Made by a program: the position numbers and the translations under genes | Shown here: positions 1,983-9,763 of the stretch, one piece after another | Position numbering within the stretch: the first letter of the stretch is position 1 | How the letters are laid out: every line of letters begins with the position of its first letter | The notes under the pieces: generated by a model | What the model was told of the DNA's origin: nothing | What the model saw: only the letters and a program-made list of their open reading frames with translations | Database searches by the model: none | Source: Flavobacteriales bacterium | GTDB lineage: Bacteria > Bacteroidota > Bacteroidia > Flavobacteriales > Parvicellaceae | Assembly: GCA_014239715.1 (NCBI GenBank) | Contig: JAAZYJ010000352.1 | Span: 1-11,150, forward strand | Length of the DNA: 11,150 bases | Direction: 5' to 3'

Positions 1983-2744
1983 ATGCATCAAATTGAAAAA
2001 TTACTCCAGGAGGCGCTGGAGCACAAAGCCATAAACCACCCTTACCTACTAGCCCTAGAAAATGGCGAATTCACAGACACAAAAGCAGCATTAAAGGACT
2101 TTGCAGTCCAATACTCAGGTTATACCGAGTGGTTTCCCAAATACCTTACCGCAGCTATATCTAAAATGAACAATGCTGAGCATCGTTCCCATCTTATTGA
2201 TAATCTCAGTGAGGAAAGCGGACAATTGGATGAGGATGAGTTAAAGTTCTTAACCGAAATTGGAATACAGTCTGAATGGGTCAACGGAATTCCACATCCT
2301 GAACTGTTTAGAAGGTTTTGCCAATCAATAGACATTGAGTCAGACAATAGCCTTGACATAACTGTTGAAATATGGCGAGAATTATTTCTGAATGTTATGT
2401 ACAACGGATCAGCAGCAGAGGCTATTGGGGCTATCGGCCTAGGAACCGAAAGCGTGGTAAAACACATTTATAAATTCTTTACAAATGCAATTCAGAGTCA
2501 TACAGATCTGGATCGGGAAGACTATGTGTTTTTTGAACTTCATTCTGAAATTGACGATGAGCATGGCAAGATCATGATCCAAATTGCTGAAGATTTTCTA
2601 AATGAATCCTCGAACAACTATAATGAGCTTCGAAAAGGCATGCTGAAAGCACTAAATCTTAGAGTCCTCTTTTGGGACATGATGTATGAACGCGCAAAAA
2701 ATCTGAATTATGAAAGTCGAAGAGAATACCAAGAGGCTTTATAA
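1983..2744 (+). CDS. Heme-oxygenase-like diiron oxidase (HDO; iron-containing redox enzyme family)
   Basis: A 253-residue, mostly helical protein. The third core helix carries H187-x3-D191-x2-H194 (ELHSEIDDEHG), the hallmark of the HDO superfamily (CADD, UndA, SznF, BesC). Further likely iron ligands are E77 or E78 (NLSEESG), H105 (in PHPELFRRF) and E156 (in GLGTES). The spacings H105-E156 (51) and E156-H187 (31) agree well with CADD (54 and 32, from memory). Between the first Glu and H105 there is an extra stretch of about 20 residues (81-104) compared with CADD. HDO enzymes assemble a labile diiron centre that activates O2 for N-oxygenation, C-C cleavage or fatty-acid decarboxylation; the substrate here cannot be told. 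The TenA/PqqC fold is the alternative, but the full ligand set argues for a metal oxidase. The 3' end overlaps the methyltransferase gene by 35 bp, which suggests co-translation. Confidence 0.8.
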   Translation: MHQIEKLLQEALEHKAINHPYLLALENGEFTDTKAALKDFAVQYSGYTEWFPKYLTAAISKMNNAEHRSHLIDNLSEESGQLDEDELKFLTEIGIQSEWVNGIPHPELFRRFCQSIDIESDNSLDITVEIWRELFLNVMYNGSAAEAIGAIGLGTESVVKHIYKFFTNAIQSHTDLDREDYVFFELHSEIDDEHGKIMIQIAEDFLNESSNNYNELRKGMLKALNLRVLFWDMMYERAKNLNYESRREYQEAL

Positions 2745-3474
2745 TAACCAGGCCGATGACTGGAACCGTAAAGAGCCGGTGCTACTATCTGATTATTCAG
2801 CTCGTCCCTTTGTTCTGAATTTGTGTGAACCTATTGCAGGCCTGGATATTCTGGATCTTGGCTGCGGTGAAGGATATGTTGGTCGAGAGCTGATAAAACG
2901 AGGCGCTCGACAAGTAGATGGTATGGATATCTCAGAAAAAATGATAGAACACGCCATCTTGCAAAAGGATGAACAAAACATTGAAAATGCAAGCTATACG
3001 GTTCAGGACATTACAAGTTTGCAAATCGATGACCAAGAAGAATACGACCTTGTAATTGCCATGTTTCTCTTCAATTACCTGAATTTAGAAGAAACACAAT
3101 CAACAATGGAAAAAGTGTTCAAACTTTTGAAACCAAACGGACATTTTGTTTTTTCAGTTCCTCACCCACTTTTGGCATTTTTGAAGAAAGATAAATACCC
3201 TTTTTACTTTGAAGTTAAAGGAGGGTACTTCTCTGGCAGAAACTTGTTATTCCCGGGTGAAATATGGAGGCGCGACGGAAAACCAGTACACGTACAATGT
3301 GTTCACAAAACCGTTGAGGATTACTTCTCTTGCTTGAAAAATTCAAATTTCAAGTCTATGCCAGATGTTCATGAGCTGCGAATCAGCGAAGAGCATATAC
3401 AGCTCGACGAGTCATTTTTTAGGCCGCTTAAAGACCTGCCTCTTCATATGGCGTTTAAGATTCAAAAAACATGA
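2710..3474 (+). CDS. Class I SAM-dependent methyltransferase
   Basis: A 254-residue protein with a Rossmann methyltransferase core. Motif I is ILDLGCGEG (47-55), the acidic residue after strand 2 is D73 (GMDIS), motif II-like D100 precedes the adenine contact region, and the post-motif strand EYDLVIAMF lies at 111-119. LLKPNGHFVFSVPHP follows as motif III and strand 5. This is the UbiE/COQ5-like methyltransf_11 type, which transfers a methyl group from S-adenosylmethionine to C, N or O of small molecules; the acceptor is not predictable. The ATG at 2710 lies inside the end of the HDO gene (35-bp overlap) and the stop overlaps the oxygenase ATG as ATGA, so the three genes are very probably one translationally coupled unit. 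Starting at 2710 keeps the N-terminal segment (YNNQADDWN) that commonly precedes motif I in this family. Confidence 0.88.
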   Translation: MKVEENTKRLYNNQADDWNRKEPVLLSDYSARPFVLNLCEPIAGLDILDLGCGEGYVGRELIKRGARQVDGMDISEKMIEHAILQKDEQNIENASYTVQDITSLQIDDQEEYDLVIAMFLFNYLNLEETQSTMEKVFKLLKPNGHFVFSVPHPLLAFLKKDKYPFYFEVKGGYFSGRNLLFPGEIWRRDGKPVHVQCVHKTVEDYFSCLKNSNFKSMPDVHELRISEEHIQLDESFFRPLKDLPLHMAFKIQKT

Positions 3475-4406
3475 TCGAAACGACTGCTCTGGAAAAATTA
3501 AGCTGGAATGACAGAGTTCCTTCAACTGAAGATTTTGTGTTTCACATACCGGAAGATTGGATCACAAGTTGTCCTAATATTTTTCTTGATGACGGGAATA
3601 TTATACCTGAAGTACTTCAATCAAGATCCAACCAGCTATTCCTTAGTAAAGTTGCTCAATGGACACAATTACATCTAAACAAACTGGAAAGGTCACCTGG
3701 ATTGATCATATTCAAAGTGAATGCTTCCCACGTTGATGATGTGCAATTAAAATCACTCTATTACTTCATCACTAAAGGATTCGGAGAGCTAAACAATCGT
3801 TACGGAGAATTATTCGAAGTAAAGGACCGAAAACTTGATTACACCAAAGAGGCCATCCCCGTATCCAAAACCAAAGCATCAACCGGTTTCCATACCGACA
3901 GTACGGCTATGAAATACAATCCGGATATTGTTGGGTTGCTTTGTCTGTACCCGTCAAAAACAGGAGGCATATCCAAATTGGCTAATGCATCTGATCTGTA
4001 TAGGTGGATGCAAAAAAACCACCCTGACAGAGTCGACATATTGAAAGAAAAGATCATTCGAGATGTGATCACTCCCGGCCAGAACACCGACAAAAAGGCC
4101 ATTTTAAAAAATCGATTTCCCGTGTTCTGCGTAGATCAAGACTCCTTTCAATTCAGATATATGAGATATTGGATCATAACCGGACACGAACGTACACAAA
4201 CACAAATTGCCCCGGAATTAATTGCGGCACTAGACAACATCGACGAATATTTAAGCAATCCTGAAAACGTCTTGGACTATCGTTTAGATCGAGGAGACAT
4301 TATGCTGGTCAACAACCATTTCATCTGTCACAATAGAACGGCATACGAGGACACTCAGGACGGAGGGAAACAACGAACCATGATACGTGCCTGGATCAAT
4401 AAATAA
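3471..4406 (+). CDS. TauD/TfdA-type Fe(II)/2-oxoglutarate-dependent oxygenase
   Basis: A 311-residue protein with the facial-triad iron ligands H141-x-D143 (GFHTDS) and H287 (FICHNR), and a 2-oxoglutarate-binding Arg (R302 or R306 in QRTMIRAW), all in the normal order for the TauD/TfdA/clavaminate-synthase-like fold. GLLCLYPSKTGG (155-166) and DRGDIMLVNN (273-282) are further family signatures. Such enzymes hydroxylate, desaturate, epoxidise, cyclise or halogenate unactivated C-H positions; halogenases replace the Asp with Ala or Gly, so D143 argues against halogenation. The substrate is unknown, but being coupled by an ATGA overlap to a methyltransferase and behind an HDO suggests tailoring of an amino-acid-like metabolite. 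A decayed paralogue lies at 6837-7335. The next gene is convergent, so transcription probably ends soon after 4406. Confidence 0.88.
   Translation: MIETTALEKLSWNDRVPSTEDFVFHIPEDWITSCPNIFLDDGNIIPEVLQSRSNQLFLSKVAQWTQLHLNKLERSPGLIIFKVNASHVDDVQLKSLYYFITKGFGELNNRYGELFEVKDRKLDYTKEAIPVSKTKASTGFHTDSTAMKYNPDIVGLLCLYPSKTGGISKLANASDLYRWMQKNHPDRVDILKEKIIRDVITPGQNTDKKAILKNRFPVFCVDQDSFQFRYMRYWIITGHERTQTQIAPELIAALDNIDEYLSNPENVLDYRLDRGDIMLVNNHFICHNRTAYEDTQDGGKQRTMIRAWINK
3862..3977 (+). repeat. 8-bp direct repeat bounding the segment deleted in the paralogue
   Basis: TATCCAAA occurs at 3862-3869 and again at 3970-3977, exactly 108 bp apart, inside the intact oxygenase gene. The pseudogene copy has one TATCCAAA (7147-7154) with the left flank of the first repeat and the right flank of the second. 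This is what slippage or short-homology recombination would leave. Confidence 0.7.
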
Positions 4407-4532: not shown

Positions 4533-5132
4533 TTACGGTGTAATCAGGTTGAACTGATCGATCTCTGATTCTGACATAAAATGGATGTCATCTGCAGGTG
4601 CAGCATTTATAATGAAATAATACAACGCTTCTGCATCTGCTACTGGATAACCGCAAAACACATAGTGATCTATGTAAATCTGATGTGAAGAATGGCCAAC
4701 AGGATAATCAGTAGCTTCCCGATTGCCTGAACTCCAGGCATGGACCCCTATTTTTCCACCGGGCTCCCTAGTTCTAACAATTCCTGATAAAAATAAATCG
4801 ACCGCACCTGATTCAATTACACCATCGAATGGTAAATGCGTATTCATATTATGGTTTCGGAGTATTTTAGCTGCCTCAAAAAGAGATTCATCGTCTCTCG
4901 ACCCCGGGCATTCTCCAAACTTAACCATGCGTATGTTCGGATATTTTTCAATCACCTTCTGAAATTGTTTGCTTACGCGAGATCCCATGTCACCATTTAC
5001 GAATAATGTTGTGTCATTTTCAACATAAAAAGGACCGAAACGATCTTCATATCCCTTGTTACATCCACTTAGCGAAAGTGCAAACGCAGAAAATACTAAT
5101 AAACTGAATCTGAAACAAACATGTGCTTCCAT
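4533..5132 (-). CDS. Lipoprotein with ClpP/crotonase-like fold, putative serine hydrolase
   Basis: A 199-residue protein with a hydrophobic signal segment (about 9-22) and lipobox L21-S-G-C24, so it is probably a lipid-anchored envelope protein. The rest resembles a ClpP/crotonase-type domain: a strand-turn VNGDMGSR (45-52), a strand MVKFGECPGSRDDES (69-83) where such proteins have the oxyanion-loop region, then VIESGAVDLFLSGIVRT (105-121) and IGVHAW (128-133). S108 aligns with the catalytic Ser of ClpP-like proteases and H131 with the catalytic His. The third triad member is not clear. The C-terminal segment AAPADDIHFMSESEI (177-191) looks like a conserved family feature. The Cys/Ala residues that usually flank the catalytic Ser are replaced (E-S-G), so activity is uncertain. 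It lies 40 bp downstream of the SRPBCC gene on the same strand and may be the last gene of that unit. The n-region is poor in basic residues (only R8). Confidence 0.6.
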   Translation of the reverse strand: MEAHVCFRFSLLVFSAFALSLSGCNKGYEDRFGPFYVENDTTLFVNGDMGSRVSKQFQKVIEKYPNIRMVKFGECPGSRDDESLFEAAKILRNHNMNTHLPFDGVIESGAVDLFLSGIVRTREPGGKIGVHAWSSGNREATDYPVGHSSHQIYIDHYVFCGYPVADAEALYYFIINAAPADDIHFMSESEIDQFNLITP

Positions 5133-6836: not shown

Positions 6837-7335
6837 AGATTGGTAATTACAGATTTACCCATATTTTTCTCCTTGACGGAAATATTTCCCTGGAAGTTCT
6901 TCAATCGGAACCCAACCAGCTATTTCTGAAAAAAAGTAGCTCGACGGACGCAACTGCATCTTAACAAGCTGGAAAAGTCACCTGGTTTGATCATTTTCAA
7001 AGTCAACGCTCTCCTTAGTAAGGATCAACAATTAAAATCGCTCTATTACTTCATAACTAAAGGAATCAAAGAGCTATACAATCGTTACGAGGAATTATGC
7101 GAGGCAAAGGACAGAAAACTTAATTCCACCAAAGAGGCTATACATGTATCCAAATTGGCTAATACAACTAACCTGTATGACGGATGTAAAAAAAATCACC
7201 CTGACAGAGTAGAAATATTGAAAGAAAAGATCATTCGAGTCGTGATCACCACGGGCCAGACCACAAATAAAATGCAATTTTAAAAAATCGATTTCCTGTT
7301 TTCAGCTTAGCTCATGACTTGCATTTTTTGGTCAA
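6837..7335 (+). pseudogene. Decayed paralogue of the TauD-type 2OG oxygenase gene
   Basis: This stretch aligns with the oxygenase gene at 3471-4406 from about codon 29 to about codon 225. Readable parts include FLLDGNI and EVLQSEPNQLFL in one frame, then IIFKVNA, QLKSLYYFITKG, TKEAIHVSK, KNHPDRVEILKEKIIR in another. By eye, 68 of 94 aligned residues in the second part are identical. Lesions are: a run of seven A (6929-6935) where six keep frame; an exact 108-bp in-frame deletion at the TATCCAAA (7147-7154) that removes residues equivalent to about 132-167, including the HxD iron ligands; a one-base loss near 7268-7276 that leads to TAA at 7281-7283; and no recognisable sequence for the distal His and Arg. 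The N-terminal about 28 codons are also missing. A 98-codon open stretch (6987-7283, TTG start) survives but cannot make an active oxygenase. Confidence 0.88.
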
Positions 7336-7419: not shown

Positions 7420-8529
7420 ATGTATACTAATCCCAACAACCACGAAGAGCTAACGAAAATATTGTCCGCTCAAGAGTTAAAGAAAAAGGACGTTTTCTGT
7501 CTTTATATCGCAGAGAAAAACTCGATCAATCTGGACCTGTTATTTCAGGATCTGAATGAACGGAATATTCCGTTTATGGGTGGTGTATTTCCTGCCATCA
7601 TAAATGGGGACACAAAATATGAGGAAGGTATTGTGATCTCTGTCCTTGAGAATGTTGATTCCATACATTTAGTCGAAGGCCTGGATAGTAGTAATATTGA
7701 AATACCCGATTTTGATCTGGATGGTGAAAAAAAGTACTGTGCGCTCACTTATGTAGATGGTTTGTCGCAGAACATTGCACAGTTCTTAAGCAATTTATAT
7801 GACACATATGGAAGTAAGGTCAGTTACCTTGGTGGAGGGGCTGGATCTTTGAGCTTTGTTCAAAAACCATGTGTGTTTTCGAATGAGGGCTTCATGGAAG
7901 ATGCAGCACTTATTGCATTGATCGAGACTAGCACGGCTTTAGGTGTTTCGCACGGCTGGGACAGAATTAAAGGTCCATTAGTTGTTACAAAATCAAATAA
8001 GAACATAGTTGAAGAGATCAATTGGCAACCTGCATTTCCTATTTATAAGGAATTGGTTGAAGAAGATTCTGGGCAAGAAATCGGTATAGATAACTTTTTT
8101 GACGTTTCCAAAGCTTATCCTTTTGGCATGCACAAAGACTATGCCGAGCAAGTTGTTAGAGACCCTATTGCTGTCAATGAAGACAATGCCCTGATCTGTG
8201 TCGGTGAAGTGCCGGAAAACACGGTAATGGATTTGCTTCGAGGAGATAATAACCATTTGATCGAAGCTGCAGAAAAAGCAACTCTAGAATGTTGCAAACA
8301 CGGTCTGAAACAATACAATAATTGCATCATAGTCGATTGCATTTCCAGAGCAATTTTCATGGAAGATGATTTTGAAAAGGAGCTGCAAATGGTGGGAGCT
8401 TCCTTGAAAAACAATTTTACAAATGTAAATATTTCAGGAGCTCTTACTTTAGGAGAGATCTCTTCGTATGGAAATGGATATATGGAATTTTTCAATAAAA
8501 CTATTGTAGTTGGGTTACTGTATGAATAA
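7420..8529 (+). CDS. FIST-domain sensory protein
   Basis: A 369-residue soluble protein with an N-terminal FIST domain (about 25-195) and a FIST_C domain (about 205-350). Recognisable landmarks are GGVFPAI (54-60), YLGGGAGSL (136-144), the acidic/hydrophobic strand DAALIALIETSTALGVSHGW (161-180), VVTKSNKNIVEEINWQPA (188-205) with the downstream YKELV, and the closing GALTLGEISSYGNGYMEFFNKT region that is typical of FIST_C. FIST domains are proposed to bind small ligands, possibly amino acids, and to feed signalling proteins. There is no signal peptide or membrane helix, so it acts in the cytoplasm. Its stop overlaps the start of the histidine kinase gene by 8 bp, which makes a functional sensor-kinase pair very likely. 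Confidence 0.88.
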   Translation: MYTNPNNHEELTKILSAQELKKKDVFCLYIAEKNSINLDLLFQDLNERNIPFMGGVFPAIINGDTKYEEGIVISVLENVDSIHLVEGLDSSNIEIPDFDLDGEKKYCALTYVDGLSQNIAQFLSNLYDTYGSKVSYLGGGAGSLSFVQKPCVFSNEGFMEDAALIALIETSTALGVSHGWDRIKGPLVVTKSNKNIVEEINWQPAFPIYKELVEEDSGQEIGIDNFFDVSKAYPFGMHKDYAEQVVRDPIAVNEDNALICVGEVPENTVMDLLRGDNNHLIEAAEKATLECCKHGLKQYNNCIIVDCISRAIFMEDDFEKELQMVGASLKNNFTNVNISGALTLGEISSYGNGYMEFFNKTIVVGLLYE

Positions 8530-9763
8530 AGAAACTGAAATTGTTCGAGATATTTTTTTCCTATATGAACTGTCTTTATCTGTAGGGAGGTCGCTAGATA
8601 TAGAAGAAAACTGCCATCGTTTTATCAGGACATTATTAGCCCGGAAAAACTATGACAGAGCAGAGGTCTTTTTTCGTGGCACGGGGGATGAGAGTGATAT
8701 TTTTTCCAGAATCTATTCTTTTCCAGGCATTGACGAGCACATCAAATGTTCCATTTCTCCCTCAGTGCTTGATGGACTACTTGATGATCTAAATGGAATC
8801 GCATCTGTCAATGGGGATAAATATTTTGATCGTATCCATACTGATTCAAAAGCCGATGGCGGAGAATATTTGCTGCTCAGACTGAAAGATAAGGGGCTGG
8901 TTAAGTTGTATTCAAGCAGCAGAAAGGACAAGATCTCAGACTTCGAAATAAATCAACTTAGCACTGTAATGGAAATATTTGCGACTTCCATTGAGGCATG
9001 TTTGCATCACGAGCTTTCAATAAAGGAAATTGAGCACCGAATTGAAGTCGAAGATGCTCTTTTTGCAGAACAGAAGATCCACAAGATCAAATCTCGTTTT
9101 GTTGCTGCTGCGTCGCATCAATTTCGGACACCACTTGCTGTAATTCGATCCAATTCAGACCTTTTGCGCATGGTAATTGATAAGGCAGACATTAAGGAGA
9201 AAGAACAGCTGGATAGAATTTCGAGTCGAATCGATGGAGAAATATCCAAGATGGTCATTCTGATGAACGACCTGCTGGAATCAGAGAAAGTAGATGAAGG
9301 TGCGATCAATGTCAATAAAAGCTTAATTGACACAACGGAATTTGTAAAGGATGTGGTTAATCGTCATAGTGACCTACAAGAAGACGGAAGGCAAGTGAAT
9401 TTTCAACAGTCGGGTGTAGTGAAAACTATCCGTACAGATCCAAAATTATTTTCCAACGCTTTGGGAAATCTGATTTCAAATGCCTTAAAATATTCCAAAG
9501 ATTCTAACCCTGTAGTAGATATTAACTATTCTCTTTCGGAAGTTCGCATTAAAGTTTCTGACACTGGTATTGGGATTCCTCAGAAGGAACATTTGAATCT
9601 GTTTCAACCTTTTTTCCGTGCAGAAAATGTGGGAGATACTCCGGGAACAGGACTTGGACTTTCCATTGCCAAAAAATTTATTGACTTGCTTGGAGGGAAA
9701 ATAGAAGTGGCTAGTGCCTTGAACAAAGGTGCAACATTCACGATACACCTGCCCTATAGCTAA
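8522..9763 (+). CDS. Soluble sensor histidine kinase paired with FIST
   Basis: A 413-residue protein counted from the ATG at 8522; an in-frame TTG at 8510 is less likely. Residues about 1-165 form a GAF-like sensor region with no membrane helix, then a coiled-coil linker (about 164-190). The HisKA dimerisation domain has phosphoacceptor H199 in ASHQFRTPL. The HATPase_c domain has an N box NALGNLISNALKY (312-324), G1 DTGIGIP (347-353), an F box FQPFFRA (361-367) and G2 GTGLGLS (375-381), so it should be catalytically competent. Being cytoplasmic, it probably receives its signal from the FIST protein encoded just upstream (8-bp overlap). No receiver domain or response-regulator gene is present in this window, so the output partner lies elsewhere. 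The 3' end overlaps the convergent MmuM gene by 4 bp. Confidence 0.92.
   Translation: MNKETEIVRDIFFLYELSLSVGRSLDIEENCHRFIRTLLARKNYDRAEVFFRGTGDESDIFSRIYSFPGIDEHIKCSISPSVLDGLLDDLNGIASVNGDKYFDRIHTDSKADGGEYLLLRLKDKGLVKLYSSSRKDKISDFEINQLSTVMEIFATSIEACLHHELSIKEIEHRIEVEDALFAEQKIHKIKSRFVAAASHQFRTPLAVIRSNSDLLRMVIDKADIKEKEQLDRISSRIDGEISKMVILMNDLLESEKVDEGAINVNKSLIDTTEFVKDVVNRHSDLQEDGRQVNFQQSGVVKTIRTDPKLFSNALGNLISNALKYSKDSNPVVDINYSLSEVRIKVSDTGIGIPQKEHLNLFQPFFRAENVGDTPGTGLGLSIAKKFIDLLGGKIEVASALNKGATFTIHLPYS

Follow-up and report, generated by a model that had tools for sequence, protein, structure and literature searches.

An HDO-methyltransferase-TauD gene trio from a Flavobacteriales contig recurs across bacterial phyla as a candidate pathway unit, with nitric oxide sensor genes nearby in some lineages

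Do three overlapping enzyme genes in a flavobacterial contig form a single pathway and, if so, what kind of chemistry might it perform? The window analysed here is a stretch of 11,150 nucleotides (contig JAAZYJ010000352.1 of assembly GCA_014239715.1, from a Flavobacteriales bacterium), in which three genes on the forward strand code for a haem-oxygenase-like dimetal oxidase/oxygenase (HDO; 1983..2744, 253 amino acids (aa); Haem_oxygenas_2, PF14518, E 7e-20), a class I S-adenosylmethionine (SAM)-dependent methyltransferase (MT; 2710..3474, 254 aa; Methyltransf_25, PF13649, E 9e-21) and a TauD-type Fe(II)/2-oxoglutarate (2OG) oxygenase (3471..4406, 311 aa; TauD, PF02668, E 2e-26). An earlier annotation made from the letters alone, which we call the sequence-only reading, had named these families, noted the overlaps and proposed a candidate biosynthetic unit. 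Coordinates and Pfam matches agree with it on families and overlaps: within the window's open reading frames (ORFs), HDO and MT share 35 bp and MT and TauD share 4 bp, the latter overlap also being visible in the gene maps of the related loci L001, L005, L006, L010, L020, L037, L042 and L044. Since 315 homologues of the HDO and 172 of TauD were found at E <= 1e-3, the ORFs are more than chance reading frames; the MT profile draws at least 4069 matches, remote methyltransferases included. The closest relatives lie on assembled contigs, with HDO at 94% and TauD at 83% on one of 46 kb and MT at 99% on contigs of up to 54 kb. None of the three proteins reaches the cut-off of any NCBIfam model listed (for MT, 25 of 70 matches listed).

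The comparative work on the trio rests on relatives of the window, not on its own whole genome. The HDO profile, run against a species-genome collection, picked out 72 loci, which together with the window make up the 73 counted here; because they were selected by that profile, these counts describe HDO-bearing loci only. Most of the genome loci come from metagenome bins, so that absences are soft and submitter names possibly wrong (for example Chryseobacterium gleum). HDO, MT and TauD stand in the same order and on the same strand in 25 of the 73 loci, whose record titles place them in the Bacteroidota, Planctomycetota, Verrucomicrobiota, Gemmatimonadota and Kiritimatiellota. Moreover, across the 33 loci where each of the three proteins had an ORF match of 120 aa or longer, the pairwise distances of the proteins correlate (r 0.75, 0.77 and 0.82), whereas the highest value in 1000 permutations was 0.32. 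Recurrence of the trio in distant taxa with its order kept had been set beforehand as the check on the proposed biosynthetic unit, and the 25 loci in five phyla, with their correlated distances, bear the proposal out. Could the genes nevertheless have come together by chance, as a patchwork without relation to one another? In favour of this idea, the family is seldom met: each of HDO, MT and TauD was found in a single genome of 395 Bacteroidota, the seed itself. Against it, gene order, overlap and correlated distances are conserved over several phyla, which leaves the idea with next to no probability. We regard it as settled that the trio is one pathway unit.

The remaining loci show how the unit varies. 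Six, all from Microcystis, have the order HDO-cupin-MT-TauD with HDO and cupin in a single 503-aa frame, while 21 have HDO and cupin but no MT (16 plain and five with a GNAT or PaaE-like gene). HDO stands alone in seven, six of which have less than 250 bases of contig past the gene. Among the smaller patterns, MT-TauD lies on the opposite strand beside HDO in L011, L018, L026, L027, L043 and L070. Overall, MT is present in 43 of the 73 loci and TauD in 39 of those 43; in the other four the contig stops within about 1 kb of HDO.

A second sampling, independent of HDO, was chosen by the MT profile only (E <= 1e-60, the best six to nine first-look candidates being scored per genome). It found the MT family in one of 395 Bacteroidota (the seed, the same single genome that holds HDO and TauD), seven of 291 Cyanobacteria and nine of 294 Planctomycetota. 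All 17 of these MT genomes also encode an HDO (14 of 14 once the three seed genomes are left out). The HDO lies beside MT in 14, and in the other three, all planctomycetes, on another contig (E about 1e-81). TauD adjoins MT in eight of the nine planctomycetes (the ninth MT is at a contig end) and in three of the seven cyanobacteria. The remaining four cyanobacteria have a distant HDO next to MT (23-26% identity to the trio HDO family), and the 20 kb fetched around MT-HDO contained no TauD, so TauD lies outside that version of the unit. Conversely, among 19 genomes in whose fetched HDO locus no MT or TauD was seen, four encode MT and TauD elsewhere, adjacent in all four, and TauD was absent from the other 15; weak methyltransferase matches in three further genomes (E 4e-28 to 1e-15) were not counted as the MT family. 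MT thus depends on HDO, while HDO, together with cupin, also occurs where MT and TauD are missing, a pattern which suggests, but does not show, that HDO acts first in the pathway. The sequence-only reading had also named what would speak against a unit, namely homologues lying apart among unrelated neighbours or falling into families of known separate function. As a rule this is not what the genomes hold, as the TauD count in MT loci and the HDO count in MT genomes make clear; it is found in part, in that the three planctomycetes and four other genomes keep MT-TauD away from HDO, and in one branch of cyanobacteria no TauD lies near MT-HDO.

The active-site motifs of the three proteins are intact. 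The window HDO has the haem-oxygenase fold of its superfamily, and its dimetal ligands (three His and three carboxylates) were matched to those of CADD by sequence alignment. E78, H105, E156, H187 and H194 are present in all 185 aligned HDOs (120 listed of the 315 database matches, plus 65 locus ORFs), and position 191 is D in 178 and E in seven. In MT, SAM motif I (DLGCGEG) is present, with L48, D49, G51, C52, G53, E54 and G55 invariant in 18 alignment rows; in TauD, the iron triad HxD...H and the candidate Arg residues for 2OG (H141, D143, H287, R302 and R306) are invariant in 19 rows. The four protein alignments use chosen rows (20, 14, 18 and 19) rather than every match.

MT is 46-77% identical to 17 chosen relatives. 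Its closest solved structures are ToxA (E 5.5e-18), an N-specific methyltransferase, and a related methyltransferase (E 1.1e-16), and its best NCBIfam equivalog score is 65 bits against a cut-off of 180 (none of the 25 of 70 matches listed reaches its cut-off). The neighbours of TauD in sequence and fold act on amino acids, betaines and phosphonates; the equivalogs for gamma-butyrobetaine, trimethyllysine and TmpA hydroxylases scored 56.4, 44.5 and 44.3 bits, below cut-offs of 414.75, 268.3 and 400.

For the HDO, the nearest fold match is the lysine N-oxygenase HrmI, tied with CADD; SznF is not among the fold matches listed, which has no bearing on kinship. The HDO superfamily has more than 10,000 members, of which only about a dozen had a known function according to a review (PMC13108848). 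The same review describes CADD as making p-aminobenzoate from its own Tyr27 and Lys152 (PMC13108848), so that one might see in the window HDO a self-sacrificing cofactor enzyme of this kind with incidental neighbours, and CADD is indeed its best PDB sequence match, TIGR04305 matching below cut-off. In the alignment, however, the sacrificed Y27 and K152 are replaced by L22 and F166, and MT depends on an HDO across phyla; a p-aminobenzoate synthase of the CADD type was accordingly rejected, and any CADD-like role is very unlikely.

Within the HDO family, the cupin marks a separate branch. In a midpoint-rooted tree of 67 HDO sequences (with long-branch warnings for L064, L037, L010 and L018), all 30 cupin-linked rows fall inside one clade of 42 rows (support 99/89), while the 25 rows outside it have no cupin in the locus (0/25) and always an MT (25/25). 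The window HDO groups with the five Bacteroidota trios L001-L005 (support 99/86), and the sister clade has gained a cupin partner. The statement in the sequence-only reading that there is no cupin or assembly-line gene therefore holds for the window; for the HDO family at large it fails, given the cupin partner in the sister clade. Could a cupin be hidden elsewhere in the genomes of MT-bearing loci? A genome-wide search of 26 such genomes found a cupin in only three of them (the two Microcystis genomes and that of L043), each time within the locus and never outside it; the 26 included four of the five relatives nearest to the window, all of them without a cupin, the genome of L002 being outside the sample. 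In the cupin protein about 150 residues precede the cupin domain, and the invariant H175, H177, E180 and H215 fit a predicted cupin metal site. SznF is missing from the 60 PDB sequences listed for the cupin profile.

Several cupin-linked loci carry further genes. In the Microcystis loci L020, L024, L025, L030, L032 and L034, a dndE-like gene (PF08870) lies just upstream and a nitroreductase-family gene (PF00881) just downstream of the fused HDO-cupin locus (domains tested in L020, homologues of both in all six). A PaaE-like ferredoxin reductase, a plausible electron donor for the HDO, adjoins HDO-cupin in four loci, L021 (13240-14310), L022, L012 and L017, its domains having been tested in L021. 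A subclade with HDO or HDO-cupin (L053, L058-L062, L064 and L069) has conserved GSHPx-like and Schlafen/AlbA genes (tested in L061), some of its loci also having MFS and aminotransferase class IV genes, and none of them MT or TauD.

Does the neighbourhood of the genes say anything about their product? In four large cyanobacterial genomes an H-NOX family gene comes after MT-HDO, and a kinase after that (domains tested in L110, the other three being homologues), and the H-NOX of L110 groups with the Alr2278 family (E 5e-73). Of 80 genomes from the cyanobacterial family of L110, which we guess to be Nostocaceae, 29 have H-NOX (32 genes). The 30 H-NOX loci viewed span about 1.5 kb on each side, so that farther partners would escape, and MT-HDO lies directly upstream of H-NOX in 14 of them: 14 of the 17 with an H-NOX sharing 76% identity or more with that of L110, and none of the 13 with 59-68%. 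Outside cyanobacteria, two loci, L007 (Saprospiraceae; H-NOX with its kinase) and L066, have H-NOX no more than about 5 kb from the module. Across 40 module genomes, 16 have H-NOX (20 genes), and six of the 20 genes lie inside module loci against 0.058 expected; with the four cyanobacterial genomes counted as one lineage, the association spans three lineages (P about 1e-5, post hoc). The cyanobacterial arrangement of MT and distant HDO directly upstream of H-NOX and kinase was seen in L109-L112, L117-L120, L164-L166, L168-L172, L176, L179 and L181.

The window itself holds a second type of candidate nitric oxide (NO) sensor, which the sequence-only reading of the trio leaves unmentioned, as it does a TauD relic nearby. 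Three kb downstream of the trio, on the same forward strand, a gene for a NosP-like protein with FIST_N and FIST_C domains (7420..8529; PF08495 E 5e-24, PF10442 E 2e-21) overlaps that of a sensor histidine kinase (8510..9763; HisKA and HATPase_c), its candidate partner. NosP (NF041558) is the sole NCBIfam match of the FIST protein (62.7 bits, E 3e-17), and the kinase has a match below cut-off to the NahK/ErcS near_NosP family (NF041832, E 1e-33), which is not its best NCBIfam match. In the same window, a degenerate partial copy of TauD (6861..7319, forward strand) ends 100 bp before the FIST gene. By blastn it matches 3577-3869 with 80% identity (295 columns) and 3970-4143 with 83% (175 columns); both of its ends are gone, as is a 100-bp internal piece coding for the iron-binding HxD. 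The position of this relic hints that a TauD gene formerly stood directly ahead of the FIST-kinase pair.

How might such a unit work? Our preferred reading, held tentatively, is that the trio is a translationally coupled mini-pathway in which the HDO would use its dimetal centre and O2 to N-oxygenate a small substrate derived from an amino acid, at its amine or guanidine nitrogen. MT would methylate the same nitrogen, or the new N-O oxygen, right before or right after the HDO step, and TauD would hydroxylate or desaturate the methylated product, both being tailoring steps dependent on HDO. In the sister clade, the N-oxygenated intermediate would probably be rearranged by the cupin that joins HDO, and the outcome may be an N-N product like that of SznF. 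The compound made by the pathway would lie in nitrogen-oxide chemistry, whether NO-releasing, NO-mimicking or NO-regulated, which would account for H-NOX and NosP-like sensor kinases standing by the genes in some lineages. What sequences and genomes show is the conserved unit, its intact active-site motifs, the pattern of dependence and the sensors in the neighbourhood; N-oxygenation, the order of steps, the amino-acid substrate and the link to NO are inferred. In favour of the reading stand the conserved gene order with correlated distances, the dependence of MT on HDO, the conserved dimetal ligands, the fold match to HrmI, the relationship of MT to ToxA, the neighbours of TauD, the HDO-cupin sister clade and the proximity of H-NOX. 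A bolder version places MT-HDO at the centre of a hitherto unrecognised way of making nitric oxide, or a signal that releases it, which would be independent of nitric oxide synthase, used in several phyla, tuned by TauD or by cupin depending on the lineage, and read by adjacent H-NOX or NosP-like kinases; we consider it improbable.

A number of observations weigh against N-oxygenation and its link to NO. The matches to HrmI, CADD and BesC do not separate N-oxygenation from C-C cleavage, and no position could be assigned to a seventh, SznF-type carboxylate on an auxiliary helix of the HDO (3H/4C); in the insert that runs from E78 to H105, position 86 is D or E in 177 of the 185 aligned sequences. 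As for the sensors, H-NOX is absent from 24 of the 40 module genomes, and in most trio genomes no NO sensor lies near the genes; the 40 genomes contain 27 FIST genes, none of them in a module locus, so that the window is the only FIST case, and its FIST protein scores far under the NosP cut-off of 450. The association was spotted after the fact, with four of the six H-NOX cases in one lineage. Furthermore, the HDO beside H-NOX in cyanobacteria, only about 20-26% identical to the trio family and with no TauD nearby, may be doing different chemistry.

The main rival is that the HDO acts oxidatively on an amino or fatty acid in another way, by C-C cleavage, desaturation or ring formation in the style of BesC, MboA, PolF or UndA, with MT and TauD tailoring the fragment and the NO sensors being regulators or incidental. 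It shares the matches just mentioned, but the top fold match, tied with CADD, is an N-oxygenase, and the pairing of HDO with cupin (sister clade) and H-NOX (cyanobacteria) points to nitrogen-oxide chemistry; we regard it as only somewhat less likely than the preferred reading. A different objection accepts the pathway and gives up the chemistry of its signal: the product would be unrelated to NO, and the nearby H-NOX or NosP-like kinases would switch the pathway on or off as one of several outputs. Published abstracts describe H-NOX and NosP as regulators of biofilm and communal behaviour, and the sparseness of sensors among trio genomes fits such a role. The upstream position of MT-HDO in 14 of the 17 cyanobacterial loci with L110-like H-NOX, and the occurrence, in other lineages, of sensors from two unrelated families close to the module, speak against this reading; all of these observations are compatible with a purely regulatory role, and we regard it as almost as likely as the C-C cleavage rival.

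Other neighbours of the trio were less regular. Among 19 chosen flanking genes tested for a conserved fourth gene, no enzyme family was common as a rule, so no transporter or precursor gene is tied to the trio; a Por_Secre_tail sorting domain was found in five (one below cut-off), along with two esterase/hydrolase-like proteins. Glyoxalase-fold proteins adjoin the trio at 216-1289 of the window and at 2892-3602 of L001, and are absent among the other flanking genes tested. On the reverse strand at 4533-5132, the window encodes a 199-aa protein with no Pfam match at E 0.01. Searches with the HDO and MT profiles matched no phage record and only three plasmid records with HDO and one with MT, and phage carriage, or plasmid carriage as a rule, was rejected. 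On a plasmid of the alphaproteobacterium Indioceanicola profundi (L088, 7152-14586), HDO (33%) adjoins MT (45%), with flagellar genes and a glycosyltransferase alongside. Next come two genes that have no Pfam match and to us resemble an ATP-grasp enzyme and a 2OG enzyme, and after these a further methyltransferase and a DegT aminotransferase; the substrate there may be sugar-linked.

With two or three soluble enzymes and no assembly line, the unit is a compact pathway that lends itself to testing, and relatives exist in culturable hosts, Microcystis strains such as NIES-4325 (L034) and I. profundi among them. If the NO link is true, the pathway would be a candidate source or modulator of the signal sensed by a well-studied family of bacterial NO sensors, and the position of MT-HDO ahead of H-NOX would be accounted for. 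Its parts all come from known superfamilies, and the logic of methyltransferase with HDO (and cupin) is known from streptozotocin. Among the titles and abstract openings listed by searches of the open PMC library, which lacks most subscription journals, none describes HDO-MT-TauD or MT-HDO-H-NOX, the trio's spread or its NO-sensor neighbourhood, though this is weak evidence of absence.

How, then, does the trio compare with known systems? As described in one paper, the ham, mgo and pvf clusters (fragin and valdiazen; HamA an HDO, HamB a cupin) resemble it in having overlapping HDO and cupin genes and related operons with and without the cupin (PMC5878181). As described there, ham differs by an NRPS-like (non-ribosomal peptide synthetase-like) protein, an AurF-type N-oxygenase and a cyclase, none of which was seen adjoining the trio, and that text names no methyltransferase or TauD for ham, mgo or pvf (PMC5878181). 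HrmI is an HDO that converts a lysine side chain to a nitro group; its identity to the window HDO is too low for the substrate to be transferred. FrbJ, TmpA and gamma-butyrobetaine hydroxylase are among the best sequence and fold matches of the window TauD, which nevertheless lies far below the curated equivalog cut-offs (56.4 versus 414.75 bits for the last). FrbJ acts late on an N-oxygenated phosphonate. The overlapping FIST and kinase genes recall NosP/NahK, and the Alr2278-family H-NOX after MT-HDO in cyanobacteria recalls H-NOX/kinase pairs; the window's FIST protein, a candidate sensor, differs in its score (62.7 bits versus the NosP cut-off of 450). Close in logic is streptozotocin biosynthesis, in which the N-methyltransferase SznE is the partner of SznF. 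Here, too, a methyltransferase and an HDO are partners, with differences: the window HDO ends at 253 aa and lacks the C-terminal cupin of SznF with its three-His iron site, no cupin was found in 23 of the 26 genomes searched of MT-bearing loci, and the trio has a TauD-type oxygenase. The sister-clade cupin protein also departs from SznF in the residues ahead of its cupin domain, its profile missing SznF as noted above. SznF is an HDO-cupin fusion (PMC11705231; PMC13108848), and the sister clade likewise has a cupin after HDO, fused in Microcystis in the domain order of SznF. Because of these HDO-cupin pairs and fusions, the precedent that the sequence-only reading saw in SznE and SznF is stronger than it had claimed.

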